From: Pelagibius sp. Alg239-R121
GTDB lineage: Bacteria; Pseudomonadota; Alphaproteobacteria; Kiloniellales; Kiloniellaceae
DNA length: 64,000 nucleotides
Direction: 5' to 3'
Assembly: GCF_947331435.1 (NCBI RefSeq)
Contig: NZ_CAMZOF010000001.1
Location: 1,550,001 to 1,614,000, forward strand
Below the pieces are notes generated by a model. It searched no databases. It saw only the letters and a list, made by a program, of their open reading frames with translations, and was not told the origin of the DNA. Both the position numbers and the translations under genes were made by a program. Of this stretch, positions 23,999-42,775 are shown in pieces (the first letter of the stretch is position 1; each line of letters opens with the position of its first letter).

Positions 23999-24772
23999 CT
24001 ATTCGCCCTCGGCCATATCTTCCAGCGCATCGCGGTTTTCGAGCCGCACTTCATTGCCCGACATCAAGGTGATCATGCCGGATGTCTTGAGCTGTGTAAT
24101 GGTCCGGCTCACGGTCTCGGTCGTCAGGCCCAAGAAATCAGCCATGTCAGTTCGGGTGATCGGCAATGAGATAGGGTTCGACTTGTTGCCGCTTTTTTGA
24201 GCACGGTTCGAGAGCATGAGCAGGAAGGAGGCGATTTTTTCCTTTGCTGTTTTTCGGCCTAAAATCAGCATCTGGTCCTGTGCCAGCGCGAGTTCGTCAC
24301 TCGCTATGCCAAGCAAGCGCCGCTCGACCTTTGGAAAATCCTTCAGCAGGTTTTCCAGCTTTTGACGATTAAAACGGCATAGTGTCGTGCTGCAGATGGA
24401 TTCGGCGCTATAGGCGTAGGCGTCCCTTGTCGCCAATCCCAAGAAATCGCCGGGAAACAGAAAGCCGGTGATCTGCCGGCGACCGTCGGACAGAAGTTTG
24501 TAAACCTTCATCGCACCGGTCGTAACGTTGTAGACGTGATCCGCCGGCGCGCCTTCGTCGAACAGACTCTGACCCGAAGTGAGTGAGACATCGGACGAAA
24601 CTCGATTTAGATGATCGAGTTCCTCGTCAGTTAGGGCGTTGCAGAAGCTCAGATCACGGACAGGACAGGCGGCGCAGGGCGAACCACCTGCCGATTGCGG
24701 GCGAGGTATTGCATCACGCAGAGTATTTTCGAAGCTGCGGTCGTTTGATCCCGTCAAAGGTCTGTCTGCCAT
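23999..24772 (-). CDS. fnrL: FNR-type oxygen-sensing regulator (FnrL)
   Basis: 257 residues from the ATG at 24772-24770; a TTG two codons upstream is also possible. Oxygen-labile 4Fe-4S regulator of the Crp/Fnr family. The cluster cysteines are C33-x2-C36-x7-C44 (SPCAACPVRDLSFCN) plus C127 in ESICSTTLC. The cyclic-nucleotide-like beta roll spans about 48-150 and the HTH is TRTDMADFLGLTTETVSRTITQL, whose E-x2-S-R reads TTGAT half-sites. The FNR box at 24919-24932 lies 147 bp upstream, so self-control is possible. It is the likely activator or repressor of all the other FNR boxes in the window. Confidence 0.92.
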   Translation of the reverse strand: MADRPLTGSNDRSFENTLRDAIPRPQSAGGSPCAACPVRDLSFCNALTDEELDHLNRVSSDVSLTSGQSLFDEGAPADHVYNVTTGAMKVYKLLSDGRRQITGFLFPGDFLGLATRDAYAYSAESICSTTLCRFNRQKLENLLKDFPKVERRLLGIASDELALAQDQMLILGRKTAKEKIASFLLMLSNRAQKSGNKSNPISLPITRTDMADFLGLTTETVSRTITQLKTSGMITLMSGNEVRLENRDALEDMAEGE

Positions 24773-24918
24773 ATTCAAGTTTTTCTATCTCTGGCCAAAG
24801 TTTCTCTCGTTCCGCATGGGGTTACAACAGAAATGTCGTGTTTCCCGGTATCTCGTCGGTTGTGGTGCAGGCTAAGACCAGATTTGCATTTCCGTGCGCA
24901 GATACGAAATCCGGCACT

Positions 24919-25785: not shown

Positions 25786-27921
25786 ATGCTACCTCGATCT
25801 TTTGTGATGGTCTTTCGGAATTGGCGGGTTGCGCTGGTTCTCTTGCCCTTGGCGATCGCGTTACGCATTTTCGATCCCTGGCCCGTCGAGCAATTGAGGC
25901 TCAAGCTCTTCGACCTCTATCAGGAAATTAAGCCCCGCGAGATCGAATCGCGCCCGGTTTTGGTCATCGATATCGATGAAGCGAGTGTGACGGAATTCGG
26001 CCAGTGGCCCTGGCCGCGGAACCTTCTTGCCCGGTTGGTTGATTTCGCGGCGCAGGCTGAGGTCCATGGTATCGGATTCGACATTCTGTTCCCGGATGCC
26101 GATCGGCTATCGCCGGAAAACCTGACCCAGCACTATCGGGATCTGCCATCCGAATTGCACGATGTTCTGGGTGTTTTACCGTCGAATGACGCCATATTAG
26201 CCCGTTCAATCTCGGCAGCACCCGTTGTCCTGGGCGTCGCACTTTCAGTACGCGAACCCACAGACGACGGTCTATTGGCGTTGCGGACACCGATATTCGA
26301 AAAGGGATATGACCCGCGTAGTTTTATGGTGCGCTACTCGGGAGTCGTCGGAAGTATTCCGCTGATCGGCGATGCCAGCCGCGGTCAGGGCGTCGTCAGC
26401 CTGGCGACCCGGCGCTATGGCGTGGTGCGGCGCCTGCCGGCGGTCGTGCGCGTGAACGAATCGCTGTTGCCTGCATTTTCGATCGAACTGCTGCGCATGG
26501 CCGCGGGCGGGGAGTCGGTTTCGGTTTATACTGAGCGTGCCGGAATCGCCGGAGTTTCCTTCGCCGGCCAGTTTGTACAAACAGACAGCAGTGGACAGTT
26601 CTGGCCGCACTTTTCTCAGCATGACCCTGGCAGGTTTGTTTCGGCGCGCGATATTCTTAACAATAAGGTGGATCCGAAACTGCTGTCGGACAAATTCGTT
26701 CTGATCGGCACAACGGCGGTCGGTCTCGGCGATCTCTCGGCAACCCCGGTCGGCGTCAACATGTCCGGTGTCGAAATCCACGCGCAGCTTCTGGAGACGC
26801 TTCTGACCGGCGGCCTCCTGCTTCGCCCGAACTTCGCCGTGGCAAGCGAGATGGCCATTATGCTGATCGTTTGCATATCCCTTGTTTCCGTTCACTCACG
26901 TCGTAAGGCGACCTCAACCATCGGCTTTTTCCTTCTGCTGTTCTTTGGTGTTCTGGGCGTTTCCTGGCTGTCGTTTGTATTGGAGAGCGTGCTGCTTGAC
27001 GCGACCTATCCGCTGTTCGTGGCCATCGTCCTCTATGTCTTCTTGGTCAGTGGTGGTTTCTTACGCGAGGAACGGGCGAGACGCCGGCGCGAAGAGCGGT
27101 TGCGTGAACTGCAGGATGAGCTCATCAACGTCAGCCGGGTCAGTGCAATGAGTCAGCTGTCTTCTGCATTGGCGCACGAGTTGAACCAGCCTTTGACCGC
27201 GATCATCAACTATATTCAGGCGGGCCGCCGGGTGATCTCCAAGACGACGGAGCGTGCAGCCGTTGCGTCTGCGGCATCACTGGACCCTTCCGGAGCCGTA
27301 CCCCTTGCCGATGAGCCGATAACCGGAGCGTCGCGGTCGATTAATGCTGAATACCCGGAGACAATCGAACGGGTTGGAACCATGATGTCCAAGGCGCTTA
27401 CGCAGGCCGAGCGGGCGGGTGGTATTATTCGAGGACTGCGCGATACCTTTGAAAAACGCGAAGCGACACGCGCCCCGGAGGATCTGTCCGCAATTATCGA
27501 AGAAGCCGTATTGCTTGGTCAGGTCGGTTCCAGCCGCCACAGAGCCGATGTGACGAGCAAAATCGATGAAAATCTGCCGCTGGTTGACGTCAATAGAATA
27601 CAAGTGCAACAAGTGATAGTTAATCTCGTGCGAAACGCCGTCGAGGCGGTTGGAGCGGCGGCCGTACGTCACGTATCGGTTGAAGCCTTTGCCGGTTCCG
27701 GGGAGACTATTGAGGTTGTTGTTGCAGACTCGGGTTCCGGTGTGGCACCCGAGGTTGAGGAAAAACTGTTTCAATCCTTCGTGACGACAAAGGACACGGG
27801 TATGGGGATTGGTTTGTCGATTTGTCACTCGATTATCGAGACTCATGGCGGTGAAATGTGGCTCACTCAAAGCCCGGAAGGCGGGGCGGCGTTTCACTTT
27901 ACTTTACCGATTGCTCACTAG
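25786..27921 (+). CDS. CHASE2-domain sensor histidine kinase
   Basis: 711 residues. A first membrane helix (about 10-28) is followed by a CHASE2 sensor domain outside the membrane (about 40-345; VLVIDIDEASVTEFGQWPWPRNLLARLV, FVLIGTTAVGLGDLSATPVG) and three helices (about 350-425). The cytoplasmic part has the HisKA helix with H464 in ALAHELNQPLTAIINYI, the N box QQVIVNLVRNAVEAV, and G boxes VVADSGSGVAPEVEEKLFQSF and TGMGIGLSICHSII. The kinase core is of the FixL/DctB type although the sensor is not the PAS-heme of FixL. The response regulator gene begins 21 bases after the stop, so they are a pair. Confidence 0.93.
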   Translation: MLPRSFVMVFRNWRVALVLLPLAIALRIFDPWPVEQLRLKLFDLYQEIKPREIESRPVLVIDIDEASVTEFGQWPWPRNLLARLVDFAAQAEVHGIGFDILFPDADRLSPENLTQHYRDLPSELHDVLGVLPSNDAILARSISAAPVVLGVALSVREPTDDGLLALRTPIFEKGYDPRSFMVRYSGVVGSIPLIGDASRGQGVVSLATRRYGVVRRLPAVVRVNESLLPAFSIELLRMAAGGESVSVYTERAGIAGVSFAGQFVQTDSSGQFWPHFSQHDPGRFVSARDILNNKVDPKLLSDKFVLIGTTAVGLGDLSATPVGVNMSGVEIHAQLLETLLTGGLLLRPNFAVASEMAIMLIVCISLVSVHSRRKATSTIGFFLLLFFGVLGVSWLSFVLESVLLDATYPLFVAIVLYVFLVSGGFLREERARRRREERLRELQDELINVSRVSAMSQLSSALAHELNQPLTAIINYIQAGRRVISKTTERAAVASAASLDPSGAVPLADEPITGASRSINAEYPETIERVGTMMSKALTQAERAGGIIRGLRDTFEKREATRAPEDLSAIIEEAVLLGQVGSSRHRADVTSKIDENLPLVDVNRIQVQQVIVNLVRNAVEAVGAAAVRHVSVEAFAGSGETIEVVVADSGSGVAPEVEEKLFQSFVTTKDTGMGIGLSICHSIIETHGGEMWLTQSPEGGAAFHFTLPIAH

Positions 27922-33178: not shown

Positions 33179-33823
33179 TTAGCGGATCGTGACCTCCACC
33201 CGCCGGTTCCTGGGTTCGGAAACCTCGTCGGCCGTCGGAACCAGGGGATTGCTCTCCCCGTGCGACGTGAGTTCGACCAGTCCGGCATCAACAGCCTGAC
33301 GCAGGAGCATATCACGTACGGTCCGTGCCCGTGCGAGCGAAAGGTTCGCGTTGACGCTCGCATCGCCCAAAGTATCGGTGTGGCCGACGACGGCGATCCG
33401 TGGGGGCGCTTTACGGGCATCCAGCGTTGCCAGGATCTCAGGAAGCAAAGCTTCTGATTCCGCGGTCAACTCCGAAGTGCCAATTTGGAAATAGAGCAAA
33501 AAGGTCACGGTCGGCTCCGGCTGAGCATCGAGTGCTTCGCCGAAAACATCCCGTATTTCTTCCTCCTCCAGAACAAAGGGATCGACCGGCTCCTGACCGG
33601 CCCGGTCCAGGCCGGTCGCTTGTCCCGCCTGATTAAGGGTCTGGGATCCAGCGTCGTTTTTGACCTGGATGGTCCCGACTTTTCCGTCATCGTCCTCAAG
33701 AAGAACAAAGAGGTTGGTCGGCGTACAGGCGGAAACAAGCATGAGAGCGAGGATGGCGAGCCACGGGCGGATTGCGCGCAGGCCGAGAGCTGTTTGGGGC
33801 ATGATCATCGGGCGCCTAATCAT
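33179..33823 (-). CDS. OmpA-family lipoprotein
   Basis: About 214 residues from the ATG at 33823-33821, which overlaps the stop of the FecR gene (ATGATTAG). Internal ATGs at 33808 and 33802 are also possible. The signal ends in the lipobox L-V-S-A-C. The C-terminal OmpA domain contains LYFQIGTSELTAESEALLPEIL, VVGHTDTLGDASVNANLSLARARTVRDMLL, HGESNPLV and EPRNRRVEVTIR. With FecR just before it, the pair may sense or build something at the cell wall. A terminator at 33116-33150 closes the operon. Confidence 0.88.
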   Translation of the reverse strand: MIRRPMIMPQTALGLRAIRPWLAILALMLVSACTPTNLFVLLEDDDGKVGTIQVKNDAGSQTLNQAGQATGLDRAGQEPVDPFVLEEEEIRDVFGEALDAQPEPTVTFLLYFQIGTSELTAESEALLPEILATLDARKAPPRIAVVGHTDTLGDASVNANLSLARARTVRDMLLRQAVDAGLVELTSHGESNPLVPTADEVSEPRNRRVEVTIR

Positions 33824-34274
33824 CGACACGGGCGAGGAACTTGGTGCCGCGAACCGAAAGAGTCGCGACCGGCGTGACAACGGAAACCGAATCGGGCGAC
33901 AGCTTGGCGATCACGCCGGAAACATAAAGCAGCGTGCCTTTCAGGAGTTCCGTGACGAACGACAGCTTCTCTTCCTTCGGCACGAACTCAAAGCTGGTCA
34001 ATCTTAGTTGCGACCCCGACCCCATTGAGAGCTGGGAGTTGTCGATAAAGGTTATGCCCATTGATCCGTTGCCTTTGACGATCAGCAGATCCGCAACGAA
34101 GACCGGGTCCCCGACCGCGATCGGCGCGGATTCTTCTTCACGGACTACCAATGTCGTCCCTTCCGCGCTCTTGACGTAGCCAATGGCGTCGTCTGCCCAA
34201 ACTACCCCTGTCCGCAAGCCGGCAGTGGCGAGCAAAAACAACAGCAGGACGGCGAGATTTCTGACAAGTCGCAC
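33816..34274 (-). CDS. FecR-domain exported protein
   Basis: 152 residues. A Sec signal (NLAVLLLFLLATAGL, cleavage after VWA about residue 27) is followed by a FecR-like domain: IGYVKSAEGTTLVVREEESAPIAVGDPVFVADLLIVKGNGSMGITFIDNSQLSMGSGSQLRL and the end SVVTPVATLSVRGTKFLARVDD. The domain is short and stands alone, not attached to an anti-sigma segment, so it is more like the envelope FecR proteins seen with OmpA lipoproteins or adenylate cyclases than iron-signal transducers. Its stop overlaps the start of the lipoprotein gene. Confidence 0.85.
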   Translation of the reverse strand: MRLVRNLAVLLLFLLATAGLRTGVVWADDAIGYVKSAEGTTLVVREEESAPIAVGDPVFVADLLIVKGNGSMGITFIDNSQLSMGSGSQLRLTSFEFVPKEEKLSFVTELLKGTLLYVSGVIAKLSPDSVSVVTPVATLSVRGTKFLARVDD

Positions 34275-34659
34275 CCTTATTCCCCTCCGAATTTTTTTCT
34301 GCAGCGTTCAGCCAGACGAGCGTAGCGACCGTCCGGCGAACATCAAGCGCCCCTATGCTGCGTGTATCGACGGGAAAAAACAAGAAAGACGGTGCTTTTT
34401 TCGATTTGTTTCACGCTAAAGGAGAATTCTCCGCAGTTGATCCTCCGTGCATAGGATCATACAGAGCTGCGGCAGTTCGCCGCATCCGGCCACTTGCGGC
34501 GACACTTTGCCGCGATGCCGTTCTCTTGGCAGGCGGTCTCCGGTTTTGTAGTTTCCGCACGCATTAATTCCTTAATTCAACCTCAAGGCGCGGTTTAACC
34601 CTTTCCAGCTCTGAGTTTCAGCGGAAAAACCACACAGCGTTTTCAAGGAGCCGACGGAT
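34275..34659. other. Intergenic stretch without a supported gene
   Basis: Lies between the divergent FecR gene and the cbb3 locus. Open frames here look random. It holds the FecR promoter; the forward cbb3 promoter is further right. Confidence 0.45.
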
Positions 34660-34758
34660 ATGAACAATCATCAGCCTCGTCGCGGTTCAAGCCTTCAGGG
34701 CCGAGAAACCGGTCTTACGCGCAGGCGCCGGCTGCAACGCAAATCGACGCGGGTTTGA
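34660..34758 (+). CDS. Possible small basic ORF upstream of the cbb3 promoter
   Basis: 32 codons with AAGGAG nine bases before the ATG. The product would be very basic (nine Arg, one Lys; TRRRRLQRKSTRV at the end) and has no membrane segment. Its TGA lies inside the first half-site of the FNR box, so FNR binding and this reading frame touch. I recognise no family; it could be a real small protein or a chance frame. Confidence 0.35.
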   Translation: MNNHQPRRGSSLQGRETGLTRRRRLQRKSTRV

Positions 34759-34768
34759 TTTATGTCAA
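34755..34768 (+). promoter_or_regulatory. FNR/FixK box of the cbb3 operon
   Basis: TTGATTTATGTCAA (TTGAT-N4-GTCAA). A -10-like TAGAAA begins at 34791, 22 bases after the box, which is the spacing of class II FNR promoters and predicts transcription from about 34803. Confidence 0.9.
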
Positions 34769-34802
34769 TGGGTGCCTGCCATCACCCCTGTAGAAAGAAT
34801 GC

Positions 34803-34862
34803 ATCTCTCACCTCCTTGTACCAGAGGCGCCGGTAGCACCCGTCACCTCTGGTGCTTTTTTT
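34803..34862 (+). ncRNA. Candidate FNR-driven leader RNA / small RNA before ccoN
   Basis: From the predicted start at about 34803 the transcript would run through CACCUCCUUG (34809-34818), which is complementary to Shine-Dalgarno sequences, and then form a ten-pair stem (34818-34827 with 34846-34855, one G-U pair) directly followed by seven U residues. That is a complete intrinsic terminator, so a stable RNA of about 60 bases would be made and ccoN would need read-through or a second start. The terminator lies 22 bases before the ccoN ATG. Confidence 0.5.
34818..34862 (+). terminator. Intrinsic terminator inside the ccoN leader
   Basis: GTACCAGAGG (34818-34827) pairs with CCTCTGGTGC (34846-34855); the 18-base loop can form an inner GGT/ACC hairpin; TTTTTTT follows at 34856-34862. 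Confidence 0.75.
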
Positions 34863-34884
34863 GTTTGTTATCCCGGGGGAACCG

Positions 34885-36573
34885 ATGAACCCTTCCCAAC
34901 AAAGCCTTCAGGTGCATCCGACGACGTATCTCGTCGGCGTTGCCCTTGCCGTCGGCTCAATGATCGGCCTTCTGCTCATGGCGAAAGCCGCAGATCCGGT
35001 CATGGCGTTCCACGGCTTGGTTTTTTTGCTCGCTTGTGTTTCCGGTGTCTTTTTGCTGATCCATCGGCACTACAATGGTGCCAACACGCGCGCGGTCAGC
35101 TGGTCCGGGGCGGATGCGACGGGGGTCGAGTACAACGATGGGGTGGTCAAAGCCGGCGTAATCGCCTCGGCTTTCTGGGGTGTTGTCGGGTTTCTGGTGG
35201 GATTGATCATCGCACTTCAGCTGGCGTTTCCGGAGCTTAATCTGGATCTGCCCTGGACGACCTTCGGGCGACTGCGCCCGGTACATACTTCAGCCGTTAT
35301 TTTTGCCTTTGGCGGCAACGTTCTGATCGCGACTTCGTTCTATGTGGTGCAACGGACCTGCCGCGCGCGGCTCGCGGGCGAGGTGGCGCCCTGGTTTGTT
35401 TTCTGGGGCTATCAGCTTTTTATCGTGATCGCGGCAAGCGGATACGTTCTCGGCGTTACGCAGTCGAAGGAATACGCCGAGCCGGAATGGTATGCCGACC
35501 TCTGGCTGACTTTCGTCTGGGTGGTTTATCTGCTGGTGTTCCTCGGGACCATCTGGCGCCGCAAGGAACCGCACATTTACGTGGCCAACTGGTTCTACCT
35601 TGCCTTCATCGTCACCATCGCGATGCTGCACATCGTCAACAACCTCTCCCTGCCGGTCTCGCTTTCAGGCACCAAGAGCTACGCGCTCTTTGCCGGGGTA
35701 CAGGATGCCTTGACCCAGTGGTGGTACGGACACAACGCGGTCGGCTTTTTTCTGACCGCCGGGTTCCTCGGCATTATGTATTACTTCGTGCCGAAACGCG
35801 CAGAGCGGCCGGTCTACTCCTACCGGCTGTCGATCATTCACTTCTGGTCACTGATCTTTCTCTACATCTGGGCTGGTCCGCATCATCTGCACTATACGGC
35901 TCTGCCGGACTGGGCGCAGACACTGGGCATGACCTTCTCGATCATGCTTTGGATGCCGTCCTGGGGCGGGATGATCAACGGTCTGATGACCCTCTCCGGC
36001 GCTTGGGACAAGCTGCGCACCGATCCGGTTCTGCGCATGCTGGTGGTCTCCGTAGCCTTTTACGGCATGAGTACCTTCGAAGGGCCCGTCATGTCGATCA
36101 AGGCCGTGAATTCGCTTAGCCACTACACGGACTGGACGGTCGGTCACGTGCACTCCGGTGCATTGGGATGGGTCGCCTACGTCAGCTTTGGTGCCATGTA
36201 CCATCTGATGCCGATCTTGTGGAAGCGCCAGCGCCTCTACTCCCTGCAGCTGGTCTCGGTTCACTTCTGGATCTCAACCATCGGCATCGTGCTCTACATC
36301 ACGGCCATGTGGGTTTCCGGCATTTTGCAGGGCCTTATGTGGCGGGCCTACGACAGCCTTGGGTTCCTTGAATATTCCTTCGTGGAAACCGTCGAGGCCA
36401 TGCACCCCTTCTATGTCATCCGTGCCGGTGGCGGTGCGCTCTTCCTCTTTGGCGCGCTGATCATGGTCTACAACCTATGGCGGACCGCCCGTGGTGACCT
36501 GCGTGACGAAAAAGCGCAGATCACAGCATCGCGTCCTGCAGCCGGCCGGCCGGCTGTGGCACCTGCAGAATAA
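34885..36573 (+). CDS. ccoN: cbb3-type cytochrome c oxidase subunit I
   Basis: 562 residues from the ATG at 34885, with GGGGGA six bases upstream; an upstream frame to 34852 runs through the terminator and is not used. Catalytic subunit with heme b and the heme b3-CuB site, about 12-14 helices. Heme- and copper-binding histidines are in [43 protein letters not shown] and [16 protein letters not shown]. The enzyme reduces O2 with very high affinity and pumps protons. First gene of ccoNOQP; the FNR box and leader terminator precede it. Confidence 0.97.
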
Positions 36574-36602: not shown

Positions 36603-37331
36603 ATGTTAGCTAAGCATGAAATCGTCGAAAAGAACTCGACCCTGCTGCTGGTCCTCATTCTGATCGTGGTGTCCATCGGTGGATTGATCGAGATCGCGCC
36701 GCTGTTCTACCTCGAAAGTACGATCGAAAAGGTCAAGGGCATGCGCCCCTACACGCCGTTGGAGCTGGTGGGCCGAAACATCTATATCCGCGAAGGCTGT
36801 TACAACTGCCATAGCCAGATGATTCGTCCACTGCGCGACGAGGCCGAACGCTATGGCCATTACAGCCTGGCAGCGGAAAGCATGTACGATCATCCCTTCC
36901 AATGGGGCTCGAAACGCACCGGACCGGATCTGGCACGGGTCGGCGGGCGCTATTCCAACGAGTGGCATGTCGCGCATATGATCAACCCCCGTTCGATCGT
37001 ACCTGAATCGATCATGCCCGGTTACCCGCATCTGGCGACGACGCCTGTCAAAACCGACGACATTGCGGGCCACTTGCAGGCCAACAGTGGCGTTGGCGTG
37101 CCCTATGACGAGGGGATGATCGACGCCGCCTATGTCGATCTGATGGCTCAAAGTGATCCGGATGCTGACGGCGTCGACGATCTGGTGGCCCGTTATCCAA
37201 AAGCGGTTGTTGCCGATTTCGATGGCAACCCGGCCTTCGTGTCCGAATTGGATGCCATGGTGGCTTACCTTCAGATGCTGGGGACTCTGGTCGATTTCGA
37301 CAGCTACCAGCCCGAAGAAAACCTGCGCTGA
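36603..37331 (+). CDS. ccoO: cbb3-type cytochrome c oxidase subunit II
   Basis: 242 residues. One N-terminal membrane helix (about 13-35) and a periplasmic monoheme cytochrome c domain with C66-Y-N-C69-H70 ([14 protein letters not shown]) and a Met ligand in SIMPGYPHL. It carries electrons from CcoP to the CcoN active site and is needed for stable assembly. A 29-base gap separates it from ccoN. Confidence 0.97.
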
Positions 37332-37342
37332 GGAACAACGTC

Positions 37343-37492
37343 ATGTCTTACCAGGATGTGCTCTATGCGAGCGAGACCTACGGTCTGCTTTATTTGATGG
37401 CGATGTTTGCCGCGGTGCTGGTCTACGCGTTTTGGCCACGCAATAGGAAGAAGTTTGAGAAGGCGGCCCGCATGCCGTTGGAGGAGGATTGA
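37343..37492 (+). CDS. ccoQ: cbb3-type oxidase small subunit CcoQ
   Basis: 49 residues, one membrane helix (TYGLLYLMAMFAAVLVYAFWP) followed by the basic tail NRKKFEKAARMPLEED, the usual CcoQ pattern. It stabilises the complex, chiefly the contact with CcoP. It starts 11 bases after ccoO and its last bases contain the GGAGGAGG ribosome site of ccoP. Confidence 0.95.
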   Translation: MSYQDVLYASETYGLLYLMAMFAAVLVYAFWPRNRKKFEKAARMPLEED

Positions 37493-37494
37493 AC

Positions 37495-38364
37495 ATGGCC
37501 AAGATCAAGGAAACCGATGCCGTTACCGGGGTCGATACGACCGGTCATGAGTGGGACGGCATCAAGGAACTGAACAATCCTCTCCCACGCTGGTGGCTCT
37601 GGACTTTCTATGTCTGCTGCATCTGGTCGGTCGGTTACTGGCTGGTGATGCCGGCCTGGCCCTTAATTTCGGACCACACAAAAGGTTTTCTCGGCTATTC
37701 CAGCCGGGCGGGCCTGAGCAAACAGATCGAGACCGCGCAGGCGCGCCAGGGCGTTTACCTGGAGCGCATTGCGGCGGCGGATCTTGAAGAAATACCGCAG
37801 GATGCGGAACTGCTGGAATTTGCGCTGGCGGGCGGTCGCTCCGCCTTTGCAGTCAACTGTTCCCAGTGCCACGGCCAGGGCGCGGCAGGTTCGGCAGGCT
37901 ATCCCAATCTCAACGATGACGATTGGATCTGGGGCGGCAGCCTGGAAGCGATCCATGAGACCGTGTTGTATGGGATTCGTTCGGACCACGACGATACGCG
38001 GATCAACGATATGCCTGCCTTTCAGGCTGACGAGCTTTTGAGCCGGGAAGAAATCAGCGATACGGCCGAATACGTTCTCTCGCTCTCGAGCGATCGTGGG
38101 GATGCGGGCGCGGTTGCGCGCGGCGAAGAGATCTACGTAGAAAACTGCGTCGCCTGTCACCAGGAAGCGGGTGCGGGGGATCAGGATCTTGGGGCGCCGA
38201 ATCTTTCCGACAGTCTTTGGCTGTACGGCGGTGACAAGGCGTCGGTGATCGCCAGCATCAATACCGGCCGTGGTGGCGTGATGCCGGCCTGGAATGCGCG
38301 TCTGGACCCGGTCACAATCAAGCAACTGGCGGTTTACGTCCATTCGCTCGGTGGCGGCGAGTAG
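37495..38364 (+). CDS. ccoP: cbb3-type cytochrome c oxidase subunit III (diheme)
   Basis: 289 residues from the ATG at 37495; a TTG six bases upstream is less likely because GGAGGAGG then lies too close. Start TTGHEWDGIKELNNPLPRWWLWTFY is the FixP hallmark, with one long membrane helix (about 36-60). Two cytochrome c domains follow: C122-S-Q-C125-H126 and C218-V-A-C221-H222, with Met ligands in DMPAF and VMPAW. It accepts electrons from soluble or membrane cytochrome c. Confidence 0.97.
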   Translation: MAKIKETDAVTGVDTTGHEWDGIKELNNPLPRWWLWTFYVCCIWSVGYWLVMPAWPLISDHTKGFLGYSSRAGLSKQIETAQARQGVYLERIAAADLEEIPQDAELLEFALAGGRSAFAVNCSQCHGQGAAGSAGYPNLNDDDWIWGGSLEAIHETVLYGIRSDHDDTRINDMPAFQADELLSREEISDTAEYVLSLSSDRGDAGAVARGEEIYVENCVACHQEAGAGDQDLGAPNLSDSLWLYGGDKASVIASINTGRGGVMPAWNARLDPVTIKQLAVYVHSLGGGE

Positions 38365-38415
38365 AACGCGGTTCCTGTAATGAGCCCTGCCGATAAGATA
38401 GGGGCAAGTGAGTAG

Positions 38416-39894
38416 ATGTTGGAAACAGCGAGACAACAGGCCTACGACGGTGGGGACGGTGTCGAGCGCAGTGAAGCTTCGGCCGTTAACAAGGCCGAGC
38501 ACCGTTCGCTGTACAAAAAGCGGGAAAAAATCTATCCAAAGAAGGTGTCGGGTACCTACCGCCGCCTGAAGTGGGTAATCCTCGTGTTAACGTTGGCGGT
38601 CTACTATCTGGCACCCTGGATTCGCTGGGACCGCGGGCCCAGCCTGCCGGATCAGGCCATCCTGATCGACATACCCGCGCGACGCTTCTACTTCTTCTTC
38701 ATCGAGATCTGGCCTCAGGAGGTCTATTACCTGACCGGACTTCTGATTCTGGCCGCACTCGCTCTGTTTCTCGTTACAACCCTGGCCGGGCGGGTCTGGT
38801 GCGGCTACAGCTGCCCGCAGACCGTTTGGACGGATCTCTTCGTCGCGGTTGAGCGTTTCATCGAAGGCGACCGCAGTGCCCAGATGCGCCTCGACGCTTC
38901 ACCCTGGAAGGCCGCCAAGCTCGGCAAGAAAGCCCTCAAGCACGTCGCGTGGCTGTTGATCGCGGCGGCGACCGGCGGTGCCTGGGTCTTCTATTTCGCC
39001 GACGCCCCGACGATTTTAGTCGACGTCTTCACACTTGACGCACCACCCGTGGCTTACATCACCATCGCTGTGTTGACCGGGTCGACCTACCTTTTCGGCG
39101 GACATGCGCGCGAACAGGTCTGTACCTATATGTGTCCTTGGCCGCGGATTCAGGCGGCGATGCTAGATGAAGATTCTCTGACCGTTACCTACCGAGATTT
39201 TCGCGGTGAGCCTCGGGGCCCGCGGCGCAAGAATAAGCCGACGGAACACCTGGGCGATTGCATCGACTGCAATCAGTGCGTGGCGGTCTGTCCGATGGGT
39301 ATCGATATCCGGGATGGCCAGCAGCTCGAATGCATCACCTGTGCGCTTTGCATAGACGCCTGCGATAATGTAATGGACCGGGTAGGCCTGCCACAGGGGC
39401 TGATCGCCTACGACACACTTTCCAACGTCGATCAGCGCGCCCACGGCGGCAAGACCCGCGTCCGCCTGTTGCGTCCGCGCAGCCTGCTTTATATTGGCAT
39501 TATTTTACTGGTTGGCGTCATCATGCTGATCTCGCTGATCAGCCGCTCGGCAGTCGATATTAATGTTCTGCGCGATCGCAATCCGCTGTTCGTGACACTT
39601 TCGGACGGTTCGATCCGAAACGGCTATACCGTGAAAATTCTCAACAAGGATCACAGCGAGAAGCTGTTTCGGTTGTCGCTTCAGGACATGGCGGATGCCG
39701 GAATACAGGTCGTGGGGTCGGATCCTGCGGCGCTGACCGTTAAGTCCGACAGGCTGGCCAGTTTCCGTGTCTTCGTTACGCTTCCCAAATCTCAGATGAA
39801 CGACGAATCGCTTCCCTTTACCTTCGTGGTGACTGATCTGTCAGACGACAGCGAGACCCGTCACGACTCTGTCTTCCGGGGGCCCGGCAAATGA
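38416..39894 (+). CDS. ccoG: cbb3 oxidase accessory protein CcoG (ferredoxin-like, Cu reductase)
   Basis: 492 residues. About five membrane helices and two 4Fe-4S motifs of the ferredoxin type, CIDCNQCVAVCP and CITCALCIDACD (about residues 280-320), plus GRVWCGYSCPQTVWTD and YMCPWPRIQ in the membrane part. CcoG reduces Cu2+ to Cu+ for delivery to the oxidase. The C-terminal 140 residues form an Ig-like periplasmic domain. The stop overlaps the start of ccoH. Confidence 0.95.
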   Translation: MLETARQQAYDGGDGVERSEASAVNKAEHRSLYKKREKIYPKKVSGTYRRLKWVILVLTLAVYYLAPWIRWDRGPSLPDQAILIDIPARRFYFFFIEIWPQEVYYLTGLLILAALALFLVTTLAGRVWCGYSCPQTVWTDLFVAVERFIEGDRSAQMRLDASPWKAAKLGKKALKHVAWLLIAAATGGAWVFYFADAPTILVDVFTLDAPPVAYITIAVLTGSTYLFGGHAREQVCTYMCPWPRIQAAMLDEDSLTVTYRDFRGEPRGPRRKNKPTEHLGDCIDCNQCVAVCPMGIDIRDGQQLECITCALCIDACDNVMDRVGLPQGLIAYDTLSNVDQRAHGGKTRVRLLRPRSLLYIGIILLVGVIMLISLISRSAVDINVLRDRNPLFVTLSDGSIRNGYTVKILNKDHSEKLFRLSLQDMADAGIQVVGSDPAALTVKSDRLASFRVFVTLPKSQMNDESLPFTFVVTDLSDDSETRHDSVFRGPGK

Positions 39895-40469
39895 AGCTGA
39901 CCATGCCGCAAACCCTGAACGGCTACCACGTCTTTGCTGCGTTCTGCGTGTTCTTCGTCATTGTGATCGGTGTGAACCTGGCGATGGTGTTCCTTGCGCT
40001 GGACAGTTGGAGCGGACTGAGCACCGACGACGCTTATCAGAGAGGTCTGCGGTATAACAAAACCCTGGAAGCCATGGCCCAGAAGGACGCTCTCGGTTGG
40101 CAGGATCGCTTGACCTTCACGCCAAGCTCATCGGGAAACCCATCAGGTGATGCCGACCGCGCCTCGAATGAAGCAGGTTGGGGACGTATCACATTGGAAA
40201 TGCGCGACCGGGAAGGCGAACTGCTGGAAGGGCTGATTGTGACGGGTCAGATCTGGCGGCCGACCAATGAGGGATTCGACCGACCGGTGTCGCTGCAGGC
40301 CGTTGGGGCCGGGCAATACACAGCCGATGTGGCGTTTCCCCTCAAGGGAAACTGGCTGGTGCGGCTGACGGCGCGGCGGGATCCAAACCGGCATGATCTC
40401 GCGGGGGCAGGACGTGACGAGCAGGCCGGTTTTGTTTTCGGCATCGAAAAGCGGATTGATGTGCCATGA
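39891..40469 (+). CDS. ccoH: FixH/CcoH family cbb3 assembly protein
   Basis: 192 residues, one N-terminal helix (GYHVFAAFCVFFVIVIGVNLAMVFLA) then a periplasmic beta-rich domain. YQRGLRYNKTLEAMAQKDALGWQ near residue 45 and VAFPLKGNWLVRLTARRD near the end are family blocks. It stays with the assembled oxidase and is required for its formation. It overlaps both neighbours by four bases (ATGA-type junctions), so ccoG, ccoH and ccoI are translated together. Confidence 0.93.
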   Translation: MKLTMPQTLNGYHVFAAFCVFFVIVIGVNLAMVFLALDSWSGLSTDDAYQRGLRYNKTLEAMAQKDALGWQDRLTFTPSSSGNPSGDADRASNEAGWGRITLEMRDREGELLEGLIVTGQIWRPTNEGFDRPVSLQAVGAGQYTADVAFPLKGNWLVRLTARRDPNRHDLAGAGRDEQAGFVFGIEKRIDVP

Positions 40470-42775
40470 GCGCGAGTCTGAATTGCTGCCCGCCGGTCGA
40501 ACTGGTGAACGAAGCCGATCGTTGCGAGCGGGCCGGGCTGCTTGCCACGGCCTGGTCTTATGCCCGAAGCCTGGAGGGCGACCGTTACGACCTGAGTCTA
40601 GGCGTGTCCAATCTGCATTGTCCGAGCTGTATAGATCAGATCGAAAGGGGACTCGCTGACCTGCCGGGACTCGAGCAGGCGCGGGTGAACCTGAGCACCC
40701 GGCGGCTGTTCCTGCGGTGGCGGGAAGAGTCCTCTTCGCTGGACGAGATCATCAGCAGGGTCACTGAGATGGGCTATCGGCTGGCGCCGATGGACAGTGA
40801 AAGCAGGCTGCAGGCGGGCGAACGCGAAGAGCGTGAACTGCTGCGTGCGGTTGCTCTTGCGGGATTTGCCGCCGCCAACGTCATGCTGTTGTCGGTTTCG
40901 GTCTGGAGCGGCCTGGTCTCGGATATGGGGCCGGCGACCCGCGCGCTGATGCACTGGGTCTCGGCGCTGATCGCGTTGCCGACGGTGGTTATCGCAGGCC
41001 GCCCGTTTTTCCGCTCTGCCCTTGCCGCCTTGCGTGGCGGCCGTTTGAATATGGATGTGCCGATTTCGCTGGCGGTAACTCTCGCGGCGGGCATGTCACT
41101 GTCGGAAACCATGCGCGGCGGTGAACATGTCTATTTCGACGCTGCCGTGACGCTGCTGTTTTTTCTCCTGATCGGCCGCTATCTGGATTTGCGCATTCGC
41201 GGTAAGGCGCGTTCGGCGGCCGAAAACCTTATGGCCATGCGGGCGGCAAGTGCGACGGTCATCGATCCGGACGGCCGGCAGCGCCGACTGGCTGCGGCTC
41301 AGGTCGAGCCCGGTATGATGGTGGCGGTGGCCGCGGGCGAACGCATTCCCGTCGACGGCACGGTAGTACAGGGCCGATCGGATGTGGATACGGCACTGGT
41401 AACAGGTGAGTCCCTGCCGCGTACCGTTGCCGAGGGAACCAGCGTTTTCGCCGGCACCTTGAATCTGAACGCGGCACTCAGAATCCGTGTAACTTCGACG
41501 GAAGATACGACACTTCTCGCTGAAATCGTGAATTTGATGGAAGCTGCCGAGCAGGGCCGGGCGCGCTATCAGCGGCTCGCGGACCGGGTCGCGCGTGCCT
41601 ATGCGCCGGTGGTGCATATTCTGTCGGCGGCCACCTTCCTGGGGTGGCTGTGGGTCGGCAGCCTCGACTGGCAATTGGCTCTGCTGACCGCCGTGGCTGT
41701 CTTGATCATCACCTGTCCCTGTGCGCTTGGCCTGGCAGTGCCTGCGGTTCAGGTTGCCGCGGTGGACCGTTTGCTGCGGCGGGGCATCCTGGTCAAGGCG
41801 GCTGATGGTCTGGAGCGTCTCGCACAGGCGGACGTGGCGGTCTTTGACAAAACCGGAACCCTGACCCTGGGACGCCCTGAACCGATCAATATAAAAGATA
41901 TCGCGCCCAACAGGCTGCAACTGGCGGCCGGCTTGGCCGCCGCCAGCAAACATCCGCTGGCCCGTGCGCTCTATCGGGCCGCCGAGGCGCAGGGTCCAGT
42001 TCCAGCCCTGACGCGGAGCGTCATCGAAACACCGGGCATGGGTTTGTCCACCGAGGTGAACGGATGCGAAGTCCGCCTGGGCAACCGGTCCTGGTGCGGG
42101 GTTGGAGAGCAGGCTGCAGAGGGTGCGGCGGGCAATGATCTTGCGATGGAACTCTGGCTGTCGGGTGGGGCAGAACCGCCGGTCTGTTTCCAGTTTAGGG
42201 ATGCCCTGAGGCCGGATGCGCTGCACACGATCACCGCGCTCAAGAAACACGGCCTCGGCATTGAGCTGCTGTCCGGCGACCGTTCGGGGCCGGTGGAACA
42301 GGTTGCCTGCAGCCTGGGGATCGAGACCTGGCATGCCGAATGCCGGCCCGACGCCAAGATCGCCCGATTGAAGGAGTTATCGGCGCAGGGCAAGCGCGTG
42401 CTTATGGTCGGCGACGGCCTGAACGATGCGCCGGCCCTGGCCGAGGCCTTCGTTTCCGTTTCACCTGCCGATGCCTCTGAAGTCAGCCAGACCGCGGCAG
42501 ACCTGATCTTTCAGGGAGAGAGTCTGGATGCCCTGGTCGAAGCCCAGCAGGTTGCAGTTTCCGCACGCGGGCTGGTGTTGCAGAATTTCGCCCTGGCTTT
42601 TCTATACAATGCGATTGCGGTGCCTTTCGCCATGGCGGGCATGGTGACGCCTCTCGTCGCCGCCGTGGCCATGTCGGCATCCTCCATTGTCGTCACGGTC
42701 AACTCTCTGCGGCTCTACGCGATGAAGCGGCGGTTGATGACCGACGGCACGGACGCTAAGCTTTCGGGGCTATGA
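40466..42775 (+). CDS. ccoI: Copper-exporting P1B-type ATPase for cbb3 assembly
   Basis: 769 residues. A heavy-metal-associated domain with C52-P-S-C55 is followed by eight membrane helices with the transport motif C417-P-C419 (TCPCALGLAVP), phosphorylation site D461 in DKTGTLT, and the hinge VGDGLNDAPAL. It belongs to the CtpA/FixI subclass that moves Cu+ slowly to the periplasm for the CuB centre rather than for detoxification. The extra N-terminal cysteines (LNCCPPVELVNEADRC) are typical of this subclass. Confidence 0.95.
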   Translation: MSASLNCCPPVELVNEADRCERAGLLATAWSYARSLEGDRYDLSLGVSNLHCPSCIDQIERGLADLPGLEQARVNLSTRRLFLRWREESSSLDEIISRVTEMGYRLAPMDSESRLQAGEREERELLRAVALAGFAAANVMLLSVSVWSGLVSDMGPATRALMHWVSALIALPTVVIAGRPFFRSALAALRGGRLNMDVPISLAVTLAAGMSLSETMRGGEHVYFDAAVTLLFFLLIGRYLDLRIRGKARSAAENLMAMRAASATVIDPDGRQRRLAAAQVEPGMMVAVAAGERIPVDGTVVQGRSDVDTALVTGESLPRTVAEGTSVFAGTLNLNAALRIRVTSTEDTTLLAEIVNLMEAAEQGRARYQRLADRVARAYAPVVHILSAATFLGWLWVGSLDWQLALLTAVAVLIITCPCALGLAVPAVQVAAVDRLLRRGILVKAADGLERLAQADVAVFDKTGTLTLGRPEPINIKDIAPNRLQLAAGLAAASKHPLARALYRAAEAQGPVPALTRSVIETPGMGLSTEVNGCEVRLGNRSWCGVGEQAAEGAAGNDLAMELWLSGGAEPPVCFQFRDALRPDALHTITALKKHGLGIELLSGDRSGPVEQVACSLGIETWHAECRPDAKIARLKELSAQGKRVLMVGDGLNDAPALAEAFVSVSPADASEVSQTAADLIFQGESLDALVEAQQVAVSARGLVLQNFALAFLYNAIAVPFAMAGMVTPLVAAVAMSASSIVVTVNSLRLYAMKRRLMTDGTDAKLSGL

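Follow-up and report, generated by a model that had tools for sequence, protein, structure and literature searches.

Genetic context of the ccoN leader

The window, i.e., the whole stretch of 64,000 nucleotides that was analyzed, contains the gene for subunit I of a cbb3 oxidase, ccoN, and downstream of it on the same strand ccoO, ccoP, ccoG, an open reading frame (ORF), and a gene for a copper P-type ATPase (Table 1). Of the genes after ccoN, ccoO, ccoP, ccoG, and the ATPase gene were identified by profile matches. The spacing suggests that ccoN and the genes after it form one operon. The nearest sizeable gene upstream (33816 to 34274, FecR domain) is located on the minus strand, so the terminator in the ccoN leader described below does not close it.

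Table 1. Positions of the ccoN-leader element, the oxidase genes, and the candidate activator in the window
Feature	Position	Strand	Basis or remark
FnrL-like CRP/FNR regulator, candidate activator	23999-24778	-	Best HTH_Crp_2 match of the genome; PF00027, PF00325
FNR/FixK-type box TTGATTTATGTCAA	34755-34768	+	Exact consensus; 14/14 identical in 3 relatives, flanks not
-10 element TAGAAA	34791-34796	+	4/6, 6/6, and 6/6 identical in the 3 relatives
Predicted +1 and unpaired 5' tail AUCUCUCACCUCCUU (anti-Shine-Dalgarno)	34803-34817	+	34803-34818 16/16 identical in 3 relatives
Terminator hairpin, ten contiguous pairs (34818-34827 with 34846-34855)	34818-34855	+	Fold and terminator scan
U7 run, predicted 3' end of the short RNA	34856-34862	+	7/7 identical in 3 relatives
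ccoN Shine-Dalgarno region GGGGGA	34875-34880	+	34873-34887 15/15 identical in 3 relatives
ccoN (cbb3 oxidase subunit I)	34885-36573	+	TIGR00780, 767.5 bits, cut-off 583.15
ccoO, ccoP, ccoG, ORF 39891-40469, copper P-type ATPase	36603-42775	+	TIGR00781, TIGR00782, TIGR02745, TIGR01511, each above cut-off

For the candidate activator, the best NCBIfam model is FnrL (194 bits, under the cut-off of 300), and its N-terminal cysteines are spaced CxxC-x7-C. Between positions 25786 and 28590 on the plus strand, a CHASE2 histidine kinase adjoins a FixJ response regulator; the latter passes its NCBIfam cut-off, and the kinase reaches 247.7 bits with the FixL model, under the cut-off of 850. The genome also encodes Hfq (111.4 bits), as an Hfq-dependent small RNA would require. 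It further contains a second ccoN (TIGR00780, 623.7 bits), for which no FNR box, with one mismatch allowed, was found within 500 bases upstream of the match. Upstream of this second gene (L002, G000:C10:46255, match from 1501), a long inverted repeat, GTTGACATTAAAAG...CTTTTAATGTCAAC, is located at about 1290 to 1334. The core of the repeat resembles an NsrR site, and it would suggest control of the second ccoN by NO rather than by oxygen.

Predicted promoter and terminator of the ccoN leader

The FNR box and the -10-like TAGAAA of the original prediction were confirmed in the sequence, and they again predict a transcription start near 34803. The box shows no mismatch to the consensus TTGAYNNNNRTCAA, and putting its center at -41.5 yields, by arithmetic, A34803 as the predicted +1, with TAGAAA consequently at -12 to -7. 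A box at -41.5 of the predicted RNA start is the arrangement expected of an FNR-activated small RNA. The anti-Shine-Dalgarno stretch, the ten-pair stem, and the seven U residues claimed to precede ccoN were likewise recovered (34803 to 34862). The segment CACCTCCTTG spans positions 34809 to 34818, its final G being the outer base of the terminator stem. The stem includes one G-U pair and encloses a loop of 18 bases that contains a weak inner stem. Only 22 bases separate the U7 run from the ccoN ATG, so transcription from any upstream promoter has to pass the terminator before entering ccoN, and read-through should therefore be either passive and sufficient, or controlled. A promoter, a predicted short RNA, and an apparent intrinsic terminator are thus combined inside the leader of a coding operon, as would be expected for a leader-derived terminator small RNA.

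The fold of the predicted 62-nt RNA has an energy of -23.4 kcal/mol (z = -4.34), and none of 200 shuffles was as good; for a 98-nt version running into ccoN, z was -1.67 and 13 of 200 shuffles were as good. Nucleotides 1 to 15 are predicted to be unpaired with a probability of at least 0.92 in the short RNAs of all four genomes of the genus, and such an unpaired seed together with a U-tail is what an Hfq-dependent small RNA would present. Ten contiguous pairs directly beside a U7 run are the textbook form of a terminator; the corresponding d score is 50. A strict scan (stem of at least 8 pairs, loop of up to 20, at least 6 T in 7) of both strands of the window returned the ccoN-leader terminator as its single site. 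Strict sites arose in 4 of 5,000 dinucleotide shuffles of positions 34769 to 34884, and shuffling of 34275 to 34884 gave 7 from 1,000. A generic terminator scan of positions 33500 to 36000, which found 3 sites with 3.1 expected, did not list the leader hairpin, whose loop exceeds the maximum of 8 bases set in that scan. On sequence grounds, termination at the leader hairpin is likely. In Rfam, the window had no match at gathering score, and the one match of the ccoN leader (E of 2.5) was far below it; the element was accordingly not assigned to a riboswitch class or another curated RNA family.

Conservation within the genus

A search for ccoN in 58 genomes gave matches in 53, three of them further genomes of the genus, and the element is present at the same place in all four genomes of the genus examined. 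The segments compared were 34803 to 34828 and 34846 to 34862, i.e., 43 positions with one loop base among them. The window is identical to each of the three relatives at 42 of the 43 positions of tail, arms, and U7 run (41 of 42 without the loop base), and at 19 of 20 positions of the arms if the 5' arm is taken as 34819 to 34828. Even assuming a neutral identity of 62%, the probability of 42 identities in 43 by chance is 3e-8. Identity to the relatives amounts to 53 to 55% at the four-fold sites of ccoN, to 56 to 63 of 165 to 166 positions upstream of the FNR box (34 to 38%, each relative), to 8 to 10 of 22 between box and -10 element (34769 to 34790), and to only 5 to 7 of 10 just past the U7 run (34863 to 34872). 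In the loop (34829 to 34845), the window shares 9 of 17 positions with the relatives, which agree among themselves at 16 and 17 of 17. The invariant block extends from 34799, four bases before the predicted +1, to G34863-T34864, with the exception of the loop and one wobble position. A second comparison, between the relatives G002 and G001, gave 43 of 43 for the element, 87 of 166 upstream, and 16 of 17 in the loop; G003 differs little from G001, with 150 of 166 upstream positions identical. Selective conservation of the segment in all four genomes is in accordance with a leader-derived small RNA. None of the four genomes shows a compensatory change in the ten-pair stem, the single variable pair being A-U or G-U, and conservation therefore cannot separate RNA pairing from a constraint on the DNA.

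Distribution outside the genus

To the genome searches, the best 80 of 588 ccoN loci from a named genome collection were added, giving 110 loci in total. In 87 of them, an FNR box was present no more than 450 bases ahead of the match; for the remaining 23, no box was found, in some cases since the match begins inside the gene. Strict terminators were detected in all five loci of the genus (four genomes, one of them represented twice) and in none of the 82 other FNR-box leaders, among which a few genomes are possibly present twice; with moderate criteria, 3 of these 82 were positive. A looser, energy-based scan of loci L033 to L112 reported some hairpin preceding a T-rich stretch at 15 of the 62 loci with an FNR box, including L033, a locus of the genus.

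The original prediction looked to relatives for the hairpin and the U-run. Both are kept within the genus (four of four genomes), and beyond it the element was detected in none of 19 other genomes of the family and none of 57 others of the order. Specifically, a DNA search of 23 family genomes gave no match with an E value below 0.1 in the 19 outside the genus (best, 0.141), and a covariance model run on 61 order genomes, with filters that lose weak matches, gave four matches, all in the genus. With the same kind of filters, both members of the genus among 385 evenly drawn genomes of the class matched at 1.2e-14 or better, and two further matches (25.9 bits; E of 0.04 and 0.06) were treated as chance. 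The covariance search that had been proposed for related genomes thus recovered the element in no other genus at a strong score.

In a sister genus of the same family (g4), five of eight leaders (L020, L023, L025, L027, and L029) end a bulged hairpin at a T6 run, with energies of -11.7 to -15.0 kcal/mol and a stem lying partly upstream of the predicted +1. These hairpins are unrelated in sequence to the ccoN-leader element and are not accompanied by an anti-Shine-Dalgarno tail; they could provide these leaders with a weaker terminator. A different hairpin near the predicted +1 was observed in the eight g4 leaders L020, L021, L023 to L027, and L029. Both-sided changes occur at 4 of its 31 predicted pairs, the overall covariation term is +2.33, which is not favorable, and in six of the eight leaders the stem is followed, at a distance of about 8 bases, by a run of at least 6 T. 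As far as sequence comparison goes, the ccoN-leader element is real, conserved, and restricted to the genus.

Candidate targets of the 5' tail

The word TCACCTCCTTG occurs twice in the 8.02-Mb genome, in the ccoN leader and at one other place, and is not over-represented, since the reversed control also occurs twice. For the 13-base complement of the tail with at most one mismatch, the four genomes contain 14 matches, four of which are the element itself, leaving 10 others; the control gave 14. A Shine-Dalgarno-like complement of the tail before an ATG was found 27 times, again with four matches to the element itself, and the reversed control gave 14. The excess of 23 over 14 is modest, and ordinary use of Shine-Dalgarno sequences would also produce it. 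The matches include a gene for a universal stress protein (Usp) in three of the four genomes, two long ORFs in two genomes each, and short ORFs, of which one of 50 codons, found in three of the four, is seemingly internal to a longer frame.

The Usp ribosome site (L203 to L206) can form ten pairs with the tail in all four genomes, with a G-U pair in one, at -16.3 to -16.6 kcal/mol. This site had been picked by motif search. It was compared with 57 ORF-start regions of the window, for which long ORFs were taken mechanically; the best of these reached -15.9 kcal/mol, slightly weaker than the -16.6 kcal/mol of the Usp site. In 2,000 random 60-mers, 1% reached -15.8 kcal/mol and 10 reached -17 kcal/mol. 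The Usp gene is thus a lead only, and the complement searches in the four genomes of the genus did not reveal a convincing trans target of the tail.

Interpretation of the element

Hfq-type small RNAs are typically built from a hairpin, a U-tail, and an unpaired stretch that is complementary to ribosome sites. The invariance of the unpaired anti-Shine-Dalgarno tail, together with the hairpin and the U-tail, therefore favors a small RNA derived from the leader and driven by FNR, with the oxidase operon expressed by read-through, a reading to which we assign a probability of roughly 0.55. At low oxygen, an FNR-type regulator would initiate transcription at 34803, and for most polymerases it would end at the U-run close to 34862. 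The product would be an RNA of approximately 60 bases, CU-rich and single-stranded at its 5' end, with a stable hairpin followed by a U-tail. A smaller share of polymerases would read through and produce the messenger of ccoN and its downstream genes. The short RNA, with Hfq, would then most likely act in trans, its tail UCACCUCCUU and neighboring bases pairing with purine-rich ribosome sites. Read-through control of the oxidase operon and an anti-Shine-Dalgarno small RNA had been proposed as alternatives; the two are compatible rather than exclusive, and the anatomy on which both were founded stands, whereas the trans role is something we infer, its presence appearing somewhat more probable than its absence. 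Several points weigh against this reading, among them the lack of compensatory changes in the stem and the modest counts of target sites. Placing a strong terminator ahead of an oxidase operon would also carry a cost unless enough transcription reads through; the conservation rests on four genomes, with the loop nearly fixed among the relatives as well; and the tail in the window's own read-through transcript is predicted to pair inside ccoN.

The terminator might instead act in cis only, setting or tuning the entry of FNR-initiated transcription into the oxidase operon, with the short RNA as waste. It could do so via a putative factor bound at the conserved tail or via pairing of the tail in the read-through messenger, and the conserved anatomy would fit equally well. 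TCACCTC occurs twice, in the tail and in the 3' arm of the hairpin, so that the 5' arm can pair with either; moreover, five pairs are possible between the tail and the ccoN Shine-Dalgarno sequence (-8.6 kcal/mol as a duplex in all four genomes), and the pairing inside ccoN predicted for the window would also suit such a role. However, folding of the read-through RNA leaves the tail unpaired in the three relatives, no Rfam family applies, and the alternative fold open to the 27 nascent bases at the 5' end has little stability (-3.5 to -4.6 kcal/mol, versus about -23 kcal/mol for the terminator form) and takes another shape in the window than in the relatives. Based on these folds, a two-state switch between terminator and antiterminator in the RNA alone is unlikely, and we consider action in cis only a serious competitor of the small-RNA reading that is nonetheless improbable.

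As a more speculative variant, the RNA might be a decoy that mimics the ribosome under oxygen control. The tail UCACCUCCUU is identical to the usual 3' end of 16S rRNA; a pattern search of the assembly for the 16S 3' end of the organism itself gave no match. Each FNR-driven initiation would release an RNA masking strong Shine-Dalgarno sites and thereby dampen translation of aerobic messages, while rarer read-through would supply the high-affinity oxidase. Oxidase supply and translational restraint would then be coupled in one start site, a possibility that we regard as rather unlikely.

Alternatively, the hairpin could be a 5' structure that stabilizes or insulates the ccoN messenger with little termination, in line with the hairpin near the predicted +1 of the eight g4 leaders and its pairs changed on both sides. 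The unfavorable covariation term of that hairpin speaks against this, as do the retention of the U7 run in all relatives, next to ten poorly kept bases, and the textbook form of stem and U-run with its d score; such a function is quite unlikely in our view.

Attenuation by a leader peptide, encoded by an ORF from the ATG at 34799 through the hairpin, is very unlikely. The ATG and the next codons are conserved, with MHLSPPC..RG....RHLWCFFC as the common pattern, but the ATG is located 2 to 4 bases upstream of the predicted +1, no clear ribosome site was seen, and, by eye, every codon differing between the window and the relatives in the stretch up to CFFC alters the residue, without a silent change. 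The distance from this ATG to that of ccoN is 86 or 85 bases, and the frames differ. With ORF lengths of 29, 36, 22, and 22, there is no conserved translated leader ORF, and this candidate was rejected. It is still less probable that the hairpin serves as the regular terminator for plus-strand transcription entering from upstream: a small reading frame of roughly 32 codons could, by eye, be read from 34660, but that region is poorly conserved, the FNR box and the -10 element lie in between, and the sizeable gene upstream points the other way. Finally, although CAAGGAGGTGAGAGATG (34801 to 34818, minus strand) combines a Shine-Dalgarno-like sequence with an ATG in all four genomes, the ORFs that would start there have only 14, 4, 4, and 4 codons and run into the poorly conserved bases between box and -10 element, so the conserved block is hardly credible as the start of a minus-strand gene, which was rejected.

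Comparison with known systems

In agreement with the original statement, which knew of no description of such an element at ccoN, we found no small RNA or attenuator of a ccoN or fixN leader in the open-access literature, as covered by titles and the beginnings of abstracts among the matches listed; likewise, the portions of Magnetospirillum and Bradyrhizobium transcriptome papers that were consulted contain no mention of such an element. Several systems share individual properties with it. SicX of Pseudomonas aeruginosa is a low-oxygen small RNA driven by Anr(FNR); it has a Rho-independent terminator and is narrowly distributed. According to the text consulted, the SicX gene is apparently separate from the target operon ubiUVT, whereas the ccoN RNA would be the leader of the oxidase operon itself (PMC10247376). 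An exposed anti-Shine-Dalgarno motif is found in the CCUCCUCCC-loop small RNAs of Rhizobiales, such as SmelA075 and SmelA099; in the published passages considered, the motif is placed in the loops of several hairpins, while the ccoN RNA carries one copy of a different sequence in an unpaired 5' tail (PMC3927594). The ccoN tail reads CACCUCCUUG and is not a hairpin loop, and the RNA was not assigned to that group. Leader terminators of Alphaproteobacteria that yield short RNAs are also known from metA and metZ of Sinorhizobium meliloti (RA1 and RZ). These are tied to SAM-II riboswitches, whereas no riboswitch family was found at the ccoN leader; for the metA terminator, the authors could, in the part of their report considered, predict no switch acting on it (PMC9373788).

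The closest system by analogy is UpsM of Rhodobacter sphaeroides, a small RNA generated by an intrinsic terminator in a leader, with read-through occurring about once in 100 and producing an operon that has no other promoter (PMC5089854). In the excerpts of that study, UpsM is Hfq-dependent, and a short ORF overlaps its terminator, as at the ccoN leader (PMC5089854). UpsM differs in preceding mraZ and the dcw cluster and in its leader of 268 nt, no sequence relation being implied, and FNR control is not mentioned for it in those excerpts (PMC5089854).

If the ccoN-leader RNA exists, one FNR promoter would give rise to both a regulatory RNA and a high-affinity oxidase, in a ratio set by the terminator, and a posttranscriptional arm would be added to the FNR/cbb3 response in Alphaproteobacteria. 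The element would also illustrate how narrow the distribution of a leader RNA can be, being present in all four genomes of the genus examined and found in no other leader analyzed. Compared with the systems above, the predicted RNA would be ordinary in kind and unusual in place: a genus-restricted, UpsM-like small RNA derived from a leader, here under FNR.
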